The position numbers and the translations under genes were made by a program. The notes under the pieces are model-generated. The model had not been told where the DNA came from. It made no database searches and saw only the letters and a list, made by a program, of their open reading frames with translations. From Protoeuglena noctilucae (Eukaryota; Chlorophyta; Pedinophyceae; Marsupiomonadales; Marsupiomonadaceae): a stretch of DNA of 64,000 bases. Location: positions 992,001 to 1,056,000 of the forward strand of contig OY253668.1 in NCBI GenBank assembly GCA_958009085.1, read 5' to 3'. The first letter of the stretch is position 1. The number at the start of each line of letters is the position of its first letter. This document shows, piece by piece, positions 17,439-27,758 of the stretch.

Positions 17439-18565
<1,127 letters not shown>

Positions 18566-18758: not shown

Positions 18759-19936
18759 TCAGCCAAGAACCGGGACGGCGTTGGGGAGGCGGCTCTCGCC
18801 TCCCACCACGGGCACGTGCTCTCCAGGGACAAACTCACGCCGCGCCCCGCGCTCGTCCACTGCAGGCAGGGGCAGGGTGTCCGGGGCGTCGGAGGGAGCA
18901 ACCGCCGAGGACAAACCATCGGCCGGCGAAGTGCTCAAAAGTCACACATTTCACCATCGCCTCCACACCACTGAGCATGTGGGCCCAGCCTCACCGATGA
19001 TCAGGCGGATGCAGCCGCCGCTAGACCCGTCCCGCGACATGGCGTGCGCGACGGCCTTCAGGACGAAGGCCCGGCACTCCTGCTCGGTCATCCCATCCCG
19101 CCAGTTGCAGTCGCACCACCCCGTGATGTACGCAGACCCAGAGCCCCCGATGTGGTACGGCTCGCGGAAGAGGGTCCCCCCGAGAGGAAGGGCCCACACG
19201 CTCCCACCCTCATGCTGCACGACGGAAACAGCGGACGCTGCTCGCCGGGCGCTCTGGCGGTGCCGTCAGCCAACCCTCTCGCTGCGCCATTGCCCGCAAC
19301 GCACCTTGTCCCAGCCGGCGACGATGAGACCGGCCTGCAGGCGGTCCTTGTAGGAGTAGACGACCTCGCGGACGATGTTGGCCGCTGTGCGCACGTCGCA
19401 GGGCTCCTGCGTCATCTGGCAATGCTGCTCGAGGGCGTGACTCACGGTCCACGAGACGTTTTGGGTGTCCGCCGCAGAGCCAGACCTGCGCGGGAGTCAG
19501 CGACGGCAACATGCGCTCGCCTGCCGAGCCTTCAGTGAGCCCAGGAGCACCCCATCTCCCAACTGCTGCCTCTCACCTGCAGATCCACACCTTGTCTGCG
19601 AGGGGTGTGATCTTGTCGGCGGCTCTGTTGGCCACGAAGTCGCCCGTGGAGGTCCGGGAGTCCGCACCCAGGATGACCCCCCCGCTGAACGTCGCAGCCA
19701 TGATGGTGGTCTGCGGGCAGGGCAGGGCGCACATCTCGACAACTAACCAATCCTCTGGCGTGACGGGCACAAGCTGAAAGCTGCCCCAATCGTCGCCGAA
19801 GCGCGTTTATGGCTGGCCAGAGAGACATATGTATTGCGCTCGTCCCTATGAGGTCGGGCAGGGCAAATGCAGCCGGGATCTCTCGCGACCTCACCCCCGT
19901 GGATACGGACTGCGACGTTGAGCAGCTTTCCGCCAT
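18759..19936 (-). CDS. 20S proteasome subunit beta type-6 (beta1)
   Basis: Catalytic caspase-like subunit of the 20S core. Exon 1 (19936-19895) encodes only a 14-residue propeptide ending in Gly. Exon 2 (19710-19577) starts exactly at the catalytic Thr1 ([20 protein letters not shown]). Thr1, Asp17 and Lys33 are present, and Arg45, which sets the acidic-residue preference of beta1, is conserved just before SGSAAD. Later exons: [12 protein letters not shown] to [27 protein letters not shown] to CIRLII; and a last exon from a CTGCAG acceptor to the stop at 18759 ([18 protein letters not shown]). All phases agree. The 5' end faces KNL1 across a 475-bp divergent promoter; the 3' end lies 193 bp from the centrin start. 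Confidence 0.95.
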
Positions 19937-20411: not shown

Positions 20412-23400
20412 ATGGACAGGAACGCGGGCGTATCCGGGCTTGCGGCGCCCCGCGCCGCGCCCAGCCCGCTCGTGAAGGGCTTGGCCGCTGAGAAGGAGAA
20501 CACGCCGGTGAAGCCGCCGAACCCGGGCAGGAGGAGTTCTATCGGGGGCAAGACGCCGGGGAGGACGCCTACTTCGGTGGGGACCGCGCGTGGCTGCCCA
20601 GACAGAGGCGTTGTTACACAACGCCGAAGCGTTCGCGCGCTCCTCGTCCGCCGCCCGGCTGGCCTCCCTGGCACCGCAGTGCAATTCTCGGTTTTTCGTC
20701 CTGTCCTGCAGATTCTCCGGAAGCGCCCCGCGCTCGCTCCCCTGAGCGCGGAGGGGAAGAAGAAACGCAAGTCCCTCGGCCGCCGCGTGTCCTTCGCCCC
20801 CGACCCCGAGGCGAGGGCAAAAGCTTGCACTTTTGCTCGTCTACGACCTCTGCTTGCGCGCGAACTCACAGCGCACAAGGCCCAGGCCTACGCCCTCACG
20901 CGCAGTTGCACACGCTTCACATTTACGAAAAGGACCGCGGCGGCTCCCCGCTTCCCCGCGCCGTGGTTATCCAGGAGGAAGAGGAGCGGAGCTCTCGCGA
21001 AGTCAACCTGGATGCCGTGCCCGGGGATGCGAGCCCGATGGAGATCACTGGTGAGCTCCACAGTGGGCTGTCGGCCCAGCCCACGGCGCGTGCTGGCCCC
21101 ATGCCCATCGTCGACACCGCAACCGTCCCATTCGCAGGGCGGTCGGCCACCTCTCGCCGGCGGAGCTTCATGCTGACGAGCCCACCCCGCCCTGCCGACC
21201 ACGACGCAGCCACGTCGTCCCCGCCCAACGCAACGGTGACTGGCGTGCTGCGTGCCGCGTTGCCTCGCCGCCCGGCCTCTGCTCCTCGCCGGCACCAAAC
21301 GGAGCACGCCCAGTCGCGACCAACCGCCGCATGCTGCGCCCGAGCCAGCATGAGGTCGTTTACCACGCACCTTTCCTGGCGTGTCTGCAGGAAAGCAACC
21401 ACGTGGCCCTTCCCCGCGCCAATCTCGCAGCGCTGATGGCCTCGCCGGCTGGCTCGGACATGCAGCTGTCCAGCGATGGCAGCGCCGAGGCGGAGACGGG
21501 CGCGCTGACGTCTCCCAGCACACACCTTCGTGCCCCAGGTTCGCGGCACTTCGGTGTGTCGGATGTGACGGCGGCTGTGCCCACCCTGGGGGCGCTGTTG
21601 GAGGAGGACGCAGGGGAAGACGGGCACGACGAGCGCGGCATGGGCCACGCATGGGACGTGACCAAGGCAGTGCCTTCACTCGACGCGCTGCTGGAGGAGG
21701 ACGTGGGGGACAGCGGGCGGGATGAGGGCGTAGGCCGCACGTGGGAGGTTACGGCGGCGGTGCCCTCCCTCGAGGCGTTGCTGGAGGACGACGTCAAGGG
21801 CGGGGGAGACGAGGAGGCAAAGGGCTTGGCCGAGAGCCCTGGCGACGCCGCGCACGAGCACCCCGGGTGGGAGGTGACGGCGGCGGTGCCGTCTCTGGGG
21901 GCGCTGCTGGAGGAGGACGTTGGCGAGGAGGGGCCGGAGCGTGACGCCAGGGAGGACGCGATGGATGCGTACGCGGGCGACAGCAAGCACAGCCACGCGT
22001 CGCCCGTCGCGGCGGCAGCGCTGCCCGCCGGCCCTGCGTGCGACGTGAGCGCGAGCGAGGACATCGCCGATGACGCCGTCCCCGCCACCCAGCCGGAGGG
22101 CGCGGCGGACGAGGCAGGCGTGGCAGGGCGCGAGGCCGACACAGCCATTGCTACGCCGGCGCCGGAGGCTGCGGCAGAGCACCCTACTCCGGCGGACAGC
22201 CCTGGTGCGCCCCTTCCCACGCCCCTCACCGCCCGTGCACCACTCGAGCCAACGCCCTCCCCTGTGTCCCTCGATGCCGGCATGGGCGCCGGCCAGGAGC
22301 AGCCAGACACCCCGATCAGGTGCGTGGAGTAGCTGTCAAGTGCTCTCGAGTGACCCCACCCCCGTGATATTCGCGCTGCCGACACACAGAGTCGGCCCCA
22401 CCACCCAGGGTACCCACAATCCTCACCACACCCACTCGGCTGCCCTTCGTGCCCGCAGCTGGTTCAATGCCGCCGTGGCGCCCTCCCTGGATGGCCTCGA
22501 CACCCAGAGTCCTTTCGCTGCCTCGGACTCTGCCATCGCTCCCTTCCACGCCACGCCCTCGGAGGTCCAGGGCCCGCGCCAGGCCACGATGTCCCCGGAT
22601 GCCGCAGTGGACCAGGCGCTGAGCCCGGCGCCCGTCCAGGCAGACCAGGACGTGAGGGACGGCGCCGGCACGTGCATGATCCCAGAGGCTTCAGCGGGGA
22701 TCAACGTCCCAGAGGCCGTCGCTGGCGTTGCGGACAACCAGCGCAAGGATGTTGAGGACGAGGCTCGTGTCTCGTCGCCCTGCCCCACGCCCGGCGACGC
22801 GGGGGCCCAGGCAAAGCAGACGCCCCTGCCCCCGGCTGCGTGCCCATCGCCCGGGGACGTGGAGATGGAGGTCGCAAGCGAGTGCGTCGGTGGAGCAAGC
22901 GGCGTGGTTATCGCTGATGGCGTGGCTGACGAGGGCCTGCCGTCGCCGGCGGAGGTAGCAGACCACTCGTCTTCGTTTGCCTTCGATGCGATCCCGACCG
23001 CGCACGCGCCCTCGCCCGCTGACAAGGCGACGGAGGCCGCTGCCGAGACCCCCCTCGGCTCCACGCTGCTCTCGCCCCACCCCGCGGCGGGGGCGAGTCC
23101 CACGTCCGCTCCGGCACCCTCGGCCAGCTCACCGACGTCGTCCCACGGGGGTCCGGGCCCCTCGCATGCGGCCCCGGCCAGCCTGTCGCTGACGCCGGCG
23201 TCCGGCCTGGACCTCACCGGCGACGACTCAAGTGACCTCGTGCGCAAGTGGGGGTTCGTGCCCGGTGCAGATGACACGCTCGCCCTCAACCTCAGGTGAG
23301 CAGCGCTTGGCTGCTGTGCGACCTTGCTTGCCATAGGTGCAGCGACTCTCGTGCTTAACCAAAGCCGTCATGGCCTTTCTTTGCCAACCCATCACTCCTC

Positions 23401-26400
23401 CCCGCACCAAGGGGGCCCTCCCGTGCCCTTTCGTAAGCCCATGATGCCTGGCACCTGGCCCCACTCGCCGGTCACCGTTTCCTGCCCCGCTCCTTCGCAG
23501 GGGCGAGGCCAAGGCCACCCTGGGGGACGCCACGTACCACCAGGTGTTTGGCGACGCGACGTCCGCCAGTGCCTTCCGCACCAGCACCAGCACTGGCTTG
23601 CCGAGGGAGGGCCAGGCGTCGCCCAGGGCAGAGACCGAGGAGGAGCAGGATGGGATGGATCCCCTCGTGTCCAGCTCGCCCATGGTGGCCGAGGCGGGCG
23701 ACCCGGACCGCGATGAGATGGCAGACGGGCGCGGGGATGTGGCAGCTGGTCCTTTGGGAGCAGAGAGCGGCGGCCACGACGACGACGACGACAACCTGGG
23801 TCTGGGAGCGGACCTGGTGCCCGAGGTGCGTGGCTGGGGGCCTGGCGGGAGGGCGGGGCTGGGCAGGGACACTGCATGCTCGACCATGGTTGTCCGGACC
23901 ACAGGGATGCTCATCGGCATCGACAGCTGCGTGCCAAGCGTGCATTGGCGTATGCTCTACTCTCCGTGCGCAAGCCTTGTCCGTCCACGCCACCCGCAGG
24001 CCGAAGAGGGCGACGAGGTGATGGCGGATGACGACACGTTTGCGGCCCCTCGGCCCAGGGACCACCGGCGGCTAACCATGTCGCTGCTGGCGGACGACGA
24101 CGACGGGGATCAGCTGCTGCGGGAGACCCCGGAGCGCAGGGACGATGGGGAACACGAAAAGGGACCCGGGGGGGCTGCAGAGGCGGTGCTGGGGGCGGTG
24201 ACGGGGGACGCCTCAGCGCTCCCCTCGCCCTCCCCGCGCGAGGCGTGGATGCCCGCCCACGCGGCCACCGCCACGCAGGCGCTGACGCTCTCCTCCGCCC
24301 CGGCCGCGGGCGCCACGGAGGCCCTCCTGGCCGACACCCGCACCGCCGACGCGCGACCTGACGCCGACGCCGATGCGGGCGCGGAGACGGGCCCATCTGG
24401 CGCCACGACGGCCGCTCCCGATGCCGACTCTTCCCCGGCACTCGCGCCGTTCCCGTCGCCCTCCCCGGCCCTCGCCCATCCCTCGGCCGCCACCCCCCGC
24501 CCCGCCCCCCAGGACGTCGCCCTCTACCCCGCGGAGGCACCCCCCGCAGCCACGCCGCAGCTCCGGGGACGCCAGGCACCCGCGCAGGCGCCCACGCCCG
24601 GCCTGTCTGCCCGCGCTGTCCCGGCGCCGGAGGCCACCCCGTCTCAGCAGGCCCCGCGCCACCCTGCGTCCACAGCCCAACCGCAGCCGCCCTCGTCCGC
24701 CCGGCCCCCCTCGGGCCCCGCCCCCGCCGAGCGCCGCCTCAGCGGGGCACTGGGATCCGCCCGCGGCCCCGCAGCGCCCGCCCCGCCCACCACCGCCCGC
24801 GGCGTCCCACTCCTCAGCCCCGTCATCGTGAGCGAGCGGCCCAAGGCTGGGCCCCCCGCCGCGACCCCGGTCCCCGCCGTGTGCCAGCTCACCGTCGCGG
24901 ACTTCCTCAAGGCAGCCGAGGTGCAGGTGACACTTCATCCACAGTGGGTAGGACAGGCACTCACGCGCGCACCTCGCCCGCTCACGCATAGCCTCATAAC
25001 GGCACCGTGGGTCATCACCACTCCCCTCACCCTTCTCCTGTCCCAATCCACACTTTTCTTAACCCCACCCAGCCCCCCATTCCACACCTTCTGTAACGCC
25101 ACCCACTGTCCCCCACGTCTCAGTTCTTGGACCACGTCCGCCGTGGCGCCAGCATCGGCCTGGGCGACCTGGCCGAGGACCCGCTCCCCTCCACACTCCC
25201 CGCGTGCTATGCCCTGCTGCACCTATCCCGCCCGGATGCCGAGGCGCTAGCCAGCGCGGTGCGGACGCTGCAAGAGGAGGCAGCAGCGTCGCGGGTGCGC
25301 GTGGGGCAGGCCGAGGCACAGCTGGCGGCGGAGAACCCCAGGCTGTTCGAGGAAGTGCAGCGCGCGAGGGGCGCGGAGCTCGACCGCATCAGGTGAGCGG
25401 CGCTGAGGATAAGGAGGGTGGCGGGGACTCGTCACCTATCCCGTGGGCGTAAGTTCACGAGTGGCGGAAACAAGGGGGTCGCTGACTGCTGATGACTCGC
25501 TCACTGACTTATCCACTCGCGATCGTCCACTCTCCTGAGTCACCGCGTGGTGACTGTTCCTGTCCCTCGTCTTGCTCCCCAGGGCGTCGGTGGCCAGTTT
25601 GAAGAAGGTGTGCCGGGCGCAGACGATGCTGGCGTGGAAGGAGTGGCGGCAGCGCATGGAGGAGGCCACACGGCAGGGGCTGCTTAAGAGCGCAGAGCAC
25701 CTCCGGTCCGACCTGGCCCTGCTGGACCGGGCCCTGGCGTCCGTCTCCAAAGTCGCAGTGCAGGTGAGGGCGGGGATGAGGAGCGGGACATGAGGGGTGC
25801 GAGATACAGACACGACTGTGGTTATTAACACTGCATGTCTGTAAATGACCCCTCCTGGCAGCCGCCTTGGTGGTCGCTTGCTGGCTGCCACTGCGGCCCT
25901 GGTCGGCAGGCTGCGGTGCATGGTTTATAGCTACTGACGTGCCCCCATCCACCTCTCAAGGTCACTCTCTCCGCGCCGTGCTCTCAGGTGCGCGACGCCG
26001 CGGCCGCTGCCCGGCAGCAGATGGAGGCAGAAGCCACGCAGCGCATCGCGGAGGCTGACCGGGCACGGCGAGCCGCGGCACTGCAGGAGGCGAGTGGGGG
26101 AAGCCCGGCTGTCGTCTGTTGCGCTCAAGGCCCTCGTAACGTCCCTCGTCACCACATGGCTGCTCCCGTGTGCTCTCGGAACCCCGCAGTCGTGCTTTCT
26201 GGACAATGCAAGCGTGGGGAGCCACGGCGGCTGTTGACGGAGCCCTTCGCGTCGACTCACCGCAGAAGCTGTCGGCCCAGGAGTCGCACAACGCCGAGCG
26301 GGCGGCCGTGCTCGAGTCGGAGCGGGCGCGGGTGCGTGCGCTCGAGGTGCAGATGGAGGAGGCAGCCCGGCGTAGGCGGAGGGCGGCAGCTGAGCTGGAG

Positions 26401-27758
26401 CAGGGGGCGGGGAGCGCCACGTCCCACGAGGATGCGGGAGGTGAGAGGGTGTTGGTTAAGATCGGTGGTGCCGTTTGACGCGATGCCTGCTGAGGCTTGG
26501 TGGTGACTTGGAGGTGCGCATGTCATGGTGCTGGGCGCGCGGTCATCGGTCGCGCCCCGCACATGGCACAGGCACCGTCCGACTGGTTTGCATCGATCTG
26601 ATGACCGTCCACTCCGCTTCCCTGCTCACGCTGCCGCTCTGTCCTCCCTTCACATCGCCGCTCCTCTCCCCACGCAGCCCGGGCCGGCGAGGAGGGCTCG
26701 GCAGTCAGGGCCCGGTTCCAAGAGCTGTCGCTGCTGGAGGGAGCGCTGGGGATGACCCTGGAGACGCTGAGCCACGGTGAGCAGGGGCGGGTGTCAGTGG
26801 ACATGGGGCCCCTAGTGCTCACCTACTGTCTGTGGCATGGGGCGCTGACGAGGACACGCGGGCGCCAGCCGCCTCGCACTGTCACCCGAGTCGCGGTCTA
26901 AGATGACACGAGGGATTTGGGTCGCTGCCGCTGCCGAGGGACTCGAGGGTGACGTACGTGACATGACCCCCCGGTCCGTGCCTCGCCCGCAGAGGCAGAG
27001 GGGGCGTGGCGCGCGACGGTCCACCTGGGGCCCCAGGGCCTCTTCCGCCTCACGCTGACGGGGCGCGGGGACGGCGCCGCACCCCACGCGTGCGCAGGGA
27101 GCGTCGACCTCGCCCCGGCCGCCTCCGCACCGGGGTCCGCGCTGCCCCGCGAGTGGCTGGCCCTGGCGGCGCGCCTCGTCGCGGGACCCGACGTGGCCCC
27201 CCTGGGCGGCAACCTCCTCCGCTGGACGGCCGCCGGCCAGCCCTGGGCTTTAACGGAGGCCCTGCAGCGCCTTCGCCCGCGCCTGGCGTCTGCCGCGCGG
27301 CTCCTCGCCAACCTCCAGGGCCTGCGCCGACGCTGGGCGCTCCTGGCCGGCGTGGACTGCCGGCCCGAGTCGGGCACCGTGTCCCTCACCTTCCTCCACC
27401 ACCCCAGCCAAACGAAGGTCGCCGTTGAAGTGGACGCGACACACGCGGCCCGGGAGGGACAGGGGCCCTGCGACTGTCGGGTCGAGGTGTCGTACTCCGC
27501 CCGGCCACCCCAGGTGAGAGCGGACGCACGAAGCGACGTCAGTGGCCGTGGCCCAGCGCTGCGACGTTCGTGCTGTGGCCCCACTCTGCCGGACCCGTGC
27601 AGGGCGCCACACGTGCGCTTGCATGCCGGCGCTCAGCCCTCGCACGCGTCCCCACGCAGGACGTCCGGGCCGTGCTCGCGGAGGCGCTCGCCAAGTGCCA
27701 CGACGCGTCCCTGGGCGCGGTGTGTGAGGCCGTGACCGGTGCCCTTCCGTCCCTCTGA
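20412..27758 (+). CDS. KNL1: KNL1/Spc105 outer-kinetochore scaffold protein
   Basis: KNL1 is the KMN-network subunit that recruits PP1 and the Bub/Mad checkpoint. Exons: 20412-20576, 20712 to about 20822, 20906-21050, 21138-21235, 21391-22319, 22459-23295, 23501-23825, 24000-24926, 25124-25392, 25583-25763, 25988-26089, 26266-26440, 26678-26776, 26993-27513, 27660-27758; phases fit. In order: a basic N-terminus; the PP1-docking motif KSLGRRVSFAP; a canonical MEIT (MELT-type) motif at the end of exon 3; four WEVT-type repeats in exon 5; a long low-complexity acidic and Pro/Ala region; the Spc7 region (LTVADFLKAAEVQ/FLDHVRR); a long coiled coil; and an RWD-like C-terminus (WRATVHLGPQGLFRLTL). 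Intron 26090-26265 uses a GC donor. The exon 2 donor is unclear. Total about 1,600 residues. Confidence 0.9.
21551..21921 (+). repeat. four-copy MELT-like protein repeat array within KNL1 exon 5
   Basis: Copies at about 21551-21612, 21650-21706, 21738-21795 and 21865-21921. Shared core [W/S]-[E/D]-V-T-x-A-V-P-[S/T]-L-x-A-L-L-E-[E/D]-D, for example VTAAVPSLGALLEEDV. Spacing is about 88-127 bp, with Gly/Asp/Glu-rich linkers that differ. The [W/S][E/D]VT core sits where MELT is expected, and the last repeats share long identical stretches, which suggests recent expansion. A decayed fifth copy (NAAVAPSLDGLD) follows in the next exon at about 22465-22501. Confidence 0.85.

Follow-up and report, generated by a model that had tools for sequence, protein, structure and literature searches.

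A constrained four-copy MELT-like repeat array in an algal KNL1/Spc105 gene

The KNL1/Spc105 gene and its neighbors

The window (the whole stretch of 64,000 nucleotides of algal DNA that was analyzed) has a GC content of 68% and contains numerous long open frames on both strands. On its forward strand lies a predicted 15-exon gene that had been annotated as KNL1; this assignment is borne out by the match of the C-terminal half of the product to the Spc7 domain (PF08317) in a Pfam search (E=3.4e-16, 59.6 bits against a cut-off of 34.5), and we regard KNL1/Spc105 as the supported identity of the gene that hosts the repeats described below. The main features of the gene are as follows.

20412-27758, plus strand: KNL1/Spc105 gene, model B (15 exons, 1656 amino acids)
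20412-20576, 20712-20810, 20906-21050, 21138-21235, 21391-22319, plus strand: exons 1-5 of model B
22459-23295, 23501-23825, 24000-24926, 25124-25392, 25583-25763, plus strand: exons 6-10 of model B
25988-26089, 26266-26440, 26678-26776, 26993-27513, 27660-27758, plus strand: exons 11-15 of model B
20574-20576 (S) and 20712-20720 (ILR), plus strand: SILR motif, spanning the exon 1/2 junction (conceptual splicing)
20784-20795, plus strand: RVSF motif, N-terminal region
24885-26038, plus strand: Spc7 (PF08317) kinetochore domain, across four exons
26993-27758, plus strand: C-terminal segment, the expected site of the KNL1 RWD domains (by position only)

The exons are predictions, with splice sites chosen by eye from the genomic sequence alone; in model B, 12 of the donors are GT and two are GC, all 14 acceptors are AG, and there are no internal stop codons. 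Model A, in which 21051-21137 is retained as coding sequence, leaves the frame unchanged. The two GC-AG introns, at 20811 and 26090 (donors GCGAGG and GCGAGT), keep the KNL1 frame open. The N-terminal pair of motifs looked for in KNL1, SILK and RVSF, is present in the spliced model as SILR and RVSF, although SILR hinges on the predicted splice. SILR resembles SILK, and we take both motifs to be PP1-docking sites in the position usual for KNL1. Searches of Pfam and of PDB sequences gave no RWD match, and the single-sequence AlphaFold model of exon 26993-27513 had a mean pLDDT of 40, too low for use.

Upstream of the gene, on the opposite strand, are an exon of a proteasome subunit (18951-19265, minus strand; PF00227, E=1.2e-11) and an exon of an EF-hand protein that looks like centrin (17800-18135, minus strand; PF00036, E=4.4e-9).

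A four-copy repeat array under constraint

The single long exon 21391-22319 encodes four copies of the unit [W/S][D/E]VTxAVP[S/T]LxALLE[E/D]D, located at 21559-21918 on the plus strand. The initial annotation described four tandem repeats with an invariant Thr and with Trp at the first position in three copies and Ser in one, all of which holds: every copy matches [WS][ED]VT.AVP[ST]L.ALLE, the first residues are S, W, W and W in order, and the Thr is present in all four. Two further motifs of the canonical MELT type are encoded in the same gene, outside the array.

21038-21049, plus strand: MEIT, canonical MELT-type motif outside the array
21559-21609, plus strand: repeat 1, SDVTAAVPTLGALLEED, Thr codon 21568-21570
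21652-21702, plus strand: repeat 2, WDVTKAVPSLDALLEED, Thr codon 21661-21663
21742-21792, plus strand: repeat 3, WEVTAAVPSLEALLEDD, Thr codon 21751-21753
21868-21918, plus strand: repeat 4, WEVTAAVPSLGALLEED, Thr codon 21877-21879
23207-23218, plus strand: LDLT, a further canonical MELT-type motif, encoded by a later KNL1 exon and followed by GDDSSDLVRKWGFVPG

The repeats start 31, 30 and 42 residues apart, and TRF reports 2.6 copies of a 90-bp unit at 21561-21794. The PSSM and HMM scores of the array contain the four copies by construction, and we therefore relied on a family test, in which 17-residue windows of the array exon were compared and a reference window was scored by its summed identity with the three windows most like it; the four copies score 44 of 51, against a maximum of 22 in 40 shuffles. 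DNA identity between copies is 75-86% in the core and 20-53% in the flanks on either side. The copies differ mainly at synonymous sites, with variable columns at codon positions 1, 2 and 3 numbering 4, 3 and 9 of 17, respectively, and with pN of 0.15, pS of 0.45 and pN/pS of 0.34 (six pairs pooled over 20 codons, the pairs being non-independent and repeated hits uncorrected). The repeat array is thus real, above chance and constrained. That the pattern is a coincidence, or the product of a wrong frame or exon in GC-rich DNA, is extremely improbable: the many open frames of the window and the exons drawn by eye invite such a reading, but the shuffle test, the distribution of substitutions over codon positions and the location of the array exon inside the KNL1 gene model all speak against it.

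Among the best candidates scored, the array was seen once in the 26.3-Mb assembly, and no relatives of it were found in viral contigs. Among the literature matches listed, titles and abstract openings name no algal KNL1 repeat of this kind; Tromer et al. 2015 lay outside that scope. A degenerate fifth copy (WFNAAVAPSLDGL) across the 22319/22459 splice was considered and rejected, with a score of 11.5 that is below the mean of 16.0 for the best windows of shuffled KNL1 (300 shuffles). Pfam gave a single hit there, DUF5813 (PF19130), which we took as chance: its E-value is 0.0075, and its 16.6 bits fall short of the cut-off of 25.

Comparison with MELT motifs

The initial alignment of the first four residues of each unit with MELT stands for positions 2 to 4 in all four copies (E/D, then Val where M/I/L/V is accepted, then Thr) and fails at position 1 in all four, where M/I/L/V is called for. 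The failure applies to both consensus forms that we considered, M-[E/D]-[L/I/V/M]-T as given in PMC3779320 and [M/I/L/V]-[E/D]-[M/I/L/V]-pT as given in a review that names Met as a binding determinant (PMC7614552). Because position 1 departs from both forms in every copy, we classify the units as MELT-like rather than as MELT motifs; they may nevertheless work in the same manner. KNL1 repeats are described as changing fast in number and sequence (PMC7292645, citing Tromer 2015), and, this rapid evolution being already known, the present array would be another variant within the known class of KNL1 repeats.

Of the canonical motifs, MEIT had been recognized before, at about 21040-21048 rather than at its actual coordinates, and was the only one reported; LDLT, which may be a further docking site, had been missed. 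In residues 1-1160 of KNL1, [D/E][LIVM]T occurs six times against 1.55 expected, and 30 of 5000 shuffles reach six, although four of the six occurrences belong to one duplicated unit and so are not independent.

Checkpoint partners and the Bub3 contact residues

Candidate partners of a Bub3-docking array are encoded elsewhere in the genome. A Mad3/BubR1-like gene (L009) matches the Mad3_BUB1_I TPR family (PF08311, E=7e-36) and has a KEN sequence, read by eye, near its start; a genome-wide search with PF08171 (Mad3_BUB1_II), run to E=1, had no match. Another gene (L010, at C5:159000-168000, minus strand), which we read as MPS1, has an N-terminal segment with a weak match to the Mad3/BUB1 TPR family (E=2.3e-6; 28 bits, below the cut-off of 31.4), followed by a kinase domain (E=6.4e-45). 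The genome further contains a Mad1 match (E=1.5e-20), HORMA exons at two loci (assigned at the HORMA level only, not to Mad2) and PP2A B56 exons at one locus.

Two Bub3-type WD40 genes, L020 and L021, were read. L021 is clearly Rae1: its E-value is 5e-58 with the solved Rae1 and 5e-13 with yeast Bub3. A human BUB3 query finds L020 as its best match, although, among solved structures, L020 matches Rae1 (E=3e-26) better than yeast Bub3 (E=4e-18); because L021 is so clearly Rae1, we read L020 as the candidate Bub3.

In yeast Bub3, according to Primorac et al. (PMC3779320), F236, F238, W278 and R283 form the pocket for motif residues 1 and 3, R217, R239 and R242 form the site for the phosphate and the Glu, and K193 and Y194 lie near motif position +3, Tyr194 being called invariable. 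Of these nine residues, five are identical in L020 (F236, F238, R242, W278 and K193), two are replaced with charge kept (R217K and R239K) and two are changed (R283Q and Y194S), with the equivalents of K193 and Y194 read by eye from the alignment. The aromatic pocket and the charge of the phosphate site are kept, with two changes beside them, and one may speculate, from this one species, that the shorter side chain at position 283 makes room for Trp. The same paper describes the MELT-binding residues as perfectly conserved in Rae1 (PMC3779320), so the retained contacts alone do not prove that L020 is a reader of phospho-MELT.

The repeat tail and PP2A-B56

The initial annotation treated each unit as a single docking module. 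The tail, however, also fits a separate motif class, that of PP2A-B56 docking sites, and the unit may be composite. The tails (LGALLEEDA, LDALLEEDV, LEALLEDDV and LGALLEEDV in repeats 1-4; tail peptide VPSLEALLEDDV) all match [LMFI]xx[ILV]xE by sequence, as LGALLE, LDALLE, LEALLE and LGALLE, and this fit suggests a possible binding partner for the tail. The consensus is given as [LMFI]xx[ILV]xEx in PMC5586252, where a table includes the LxxLxEEE of AXIN2 and tallies acidic residues at positions 2 and 6-9; Glu at position 2 is described as mimicking a phosphoserine that binds H187/R188 (PMC7108865). The array tails are the only four matches in residues 1-1150 of KNL1, where shuffles average 1.0 and 26 of 2000 reach four, the four being one duplicated unit rather than independent events. 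The algal B56 retains all 16 of the motif-pocket residues named in PMC4930772 (alignment to B56 delta, with numbering counted by hand).

In a composite kinase-phosphatase unit, [W/S][D/E]VT would dock Bub3, as in the explanation that we favor below, and LxALLE[E/D]D would dock PP2A-B56, such that every repeat would recruit to KNL1 the checkpoint signal together with the activity that erases it. Apart from the confinement of matches in the N-terminal part of KNL1 to the tails and the intact pocket, such a unit would be in line with the E/D and D directly after the Glu in all four copies, the D/E at tail position 2 in copies 2 and 3, and the fact that lineages differ in which checkpoint protein bears the B56 docking site (BubR1 in humans and BUB-1 in Caenorhabditis elegans; PMC10155811, PMC7787666). 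We nevertheless consider it unlikely. Position 4 is Leu in all copies, not the Ile or Val found in BubR1 and BUB-1, and position 3 is Ala, not Pro; the tail is nearly fixed except at position 2, so the fit is unselective; and LxxLL-type helices yield the same pattern. A match by itself says little, given that LGDLAE and LGAVCE in the C-terminal half of KNL1, and LRPLDE in the readable exons of the Mad3-like protein, match as well. Human Bub1 has a putative B56 site that is reported to be non-functional (PMC10155811), and B56 pockets are widely conserved, so that retention of the pocket does not discriminate.

The boldest form of this idea, a bifunctional repeat with a Trp-led Bub3 dock and a PP2A-B56 dock of its own, read by a Bub3 adapted through R283Q and Y194S to the Trp-led core, seems improbable to us. 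If it were true, the phosphatase-recruiting role of human BubR1 would have moved to KNL1 and been multiplied together with the checkpoint motif; because LRPLDE is present in the Mad3-like exons, loss of that role from Mad3 cannot be claimed. More generally, if the tail docks PP2A-B56, each checkpoint unit would have a built-in off-switch, and the role could sit on KNL1. Compared with the KARD/LxxIxE motif of BubR1 and the motif of C. elegans BUB-1, the algal tail has in common LxxLxE followed by acids, a location on a checkpoint scaffold and an intact B56 pocket in the same genome; it differs in its location on KNL1, in its fourfold repetition, and in its Leu at position 4 and lack of Pro at position 3.

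Possible function of the array

The array probably serves to dock Bub3 on an algal KNL1 through diverged, MELT-like units, each of which includes a second short motif. MPS1 would phosphorylate the Thr shared by all the [W/S][D/E]VT cores, and the phosphorylated core would be bound by Bub3, which a Mad3/BubR1-like protein would carry. The phosphate and the acidic residue would face the basic residues K217, K239 and R242 of Bub3 (yeast numbering), while the Val, together with the Trp that replaces Met, would pack on F236, F238 and W278; PP1 docked at SILR and RVSF would reverse the phosphorylation. The fixed tail P[S/T]LxALLE[E/D]D would be the second short motif of each repeat unit. Docking of Bub3 by the repeats is plausible in view of the likely partner genes and of the seven of nine contact residues that the candidate Bub3 keeps in identity or charge. 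Several points count against the proposal. Trp and Ser at position 1 fall outside both of the published consensus forms considered; residues 1 and 3 occupy a common pocket, where Trp might not fit; the canonical MEIT and LDLT motifs could do the docking alone; and L020 scores nearer to Rae1 than to yeast Bub3, with Ser at the position of the invariable Tyr194. The green lineage is also known to replace the MELT mechanism, as land-plant KNL1 is reported to be without MELT repeats. We lowered our confidence slightly, both in this explanation and in the bifunctional one, because of the Rae1 result and the B56-consensus matches in the C-terminal half of KNL1.

Two further explanations have to be weighed against Bub3 docking by the core with a tail of its own. 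The tail might be a short helix (a P-[S/T] cap followed by LxALL) that binds Bub3 at a second surface, or else the TPR domain of either the Mad3/BubR1-like or the MPS1-like protein, and so strengthens the core in the way of the vertebrate KI and SHT motifs. The two genes that match the Mad3_BUB1_I TPR family, one of them weakly, would supply the partners, the S/T at +5 is kept in all four copies, and vertebrate MELT units are described as bearing added motifs that raise Bub recruitment (PMC7614552). But KI motifs, which only some metazoans have, precede MELT1, whereas the algal tail is downstream of the core in every unit; the array is without SHT, and the helix is guessed from the residues, so that this reading, while possible, appears rather unlikely. 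Alternatively, the array may have lost Bub3 docking and acquired a different binding partner, Bub3 being left to MEIT and LDLT. The off-consensus position 1 in all four copies, the two canonical motifs remaining outside the array and the reported use of other KNL1 regions in land plants speak for such a loss; yet the acid at -2, the Val at -1 and the Thr are all kept in four of four copies, and the genome keeps both an MPS1-like gene and the phosphate site of Bub3. We hold this loss to be quite unlikely and retain the diverged docking array as the preferred explanation.

Comparison with known KNL1 systems

As in the MELT arrays of yeast and human KNL1/Spc105, the algal repeats lie in the N-terminal half of KNL1 and have an [E/D]-[aliphatic]-T core; unlike those arrays, they have Trp or Ser at position 1 instead of Met, Ile, Leu or Val, carry a fixed 13-residue tail and number only four. 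The SHT and KI elements of vertebrate KNL1 are likewise extra short motifs beside MELT that tune Bub recruitment. However, SHT is Ser-His-Thr after MELT, whereas xAVP[S/T]L follows the Thr in all four algal copies, and KI, described as a 12-residue motif upstream of MELT1 that binds the Bub1/BubR1 TPR (PMC7614552), does not recur per unit, whereas the algal tail lies downstream of each core. Judged by both sequence and place, the tail is neither SHT nor KI.

Land-plant KNL1 (the 145-residue BMF region of maize and the eudicot-specific domain of Arabidopsis) also recruits BUB3/BMF proteins and belongs to the green lineage. It differs from the algal protein, which has MELT-type motifs as well as a MELT-like array: plant or land-plant KNL1 is said to be without MELT repeats in PMC12526889 and PMC11794483, one of which raises the question of how checkpoint proteins are recruited in plants. 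Should the lineage be green, two canonical motifs together with a recast array may be intermediate between the standard and the plant system. The genome contains 21 exon-level matches to light-harvesting proteins, which indicates a photosynthetic eukaryote, putatively a green alga.

The Mad3/BubR1-like gene has a repeat of its own, a tandem duplication of GDVTVNTRAAMALIDGAFGG at L009:5565-5705, which has no Pfam matches up to E=1. A likeness of the KNL1 repeat to the duplicated Mad3-like segment (DVTVNTRAAMALIDGAFGG) was rejected, with 259 of 1000 shuffles scoring as high. The Mad3-like gene and the MPS1-like gene are located on the same contig, about 17 kb apart.
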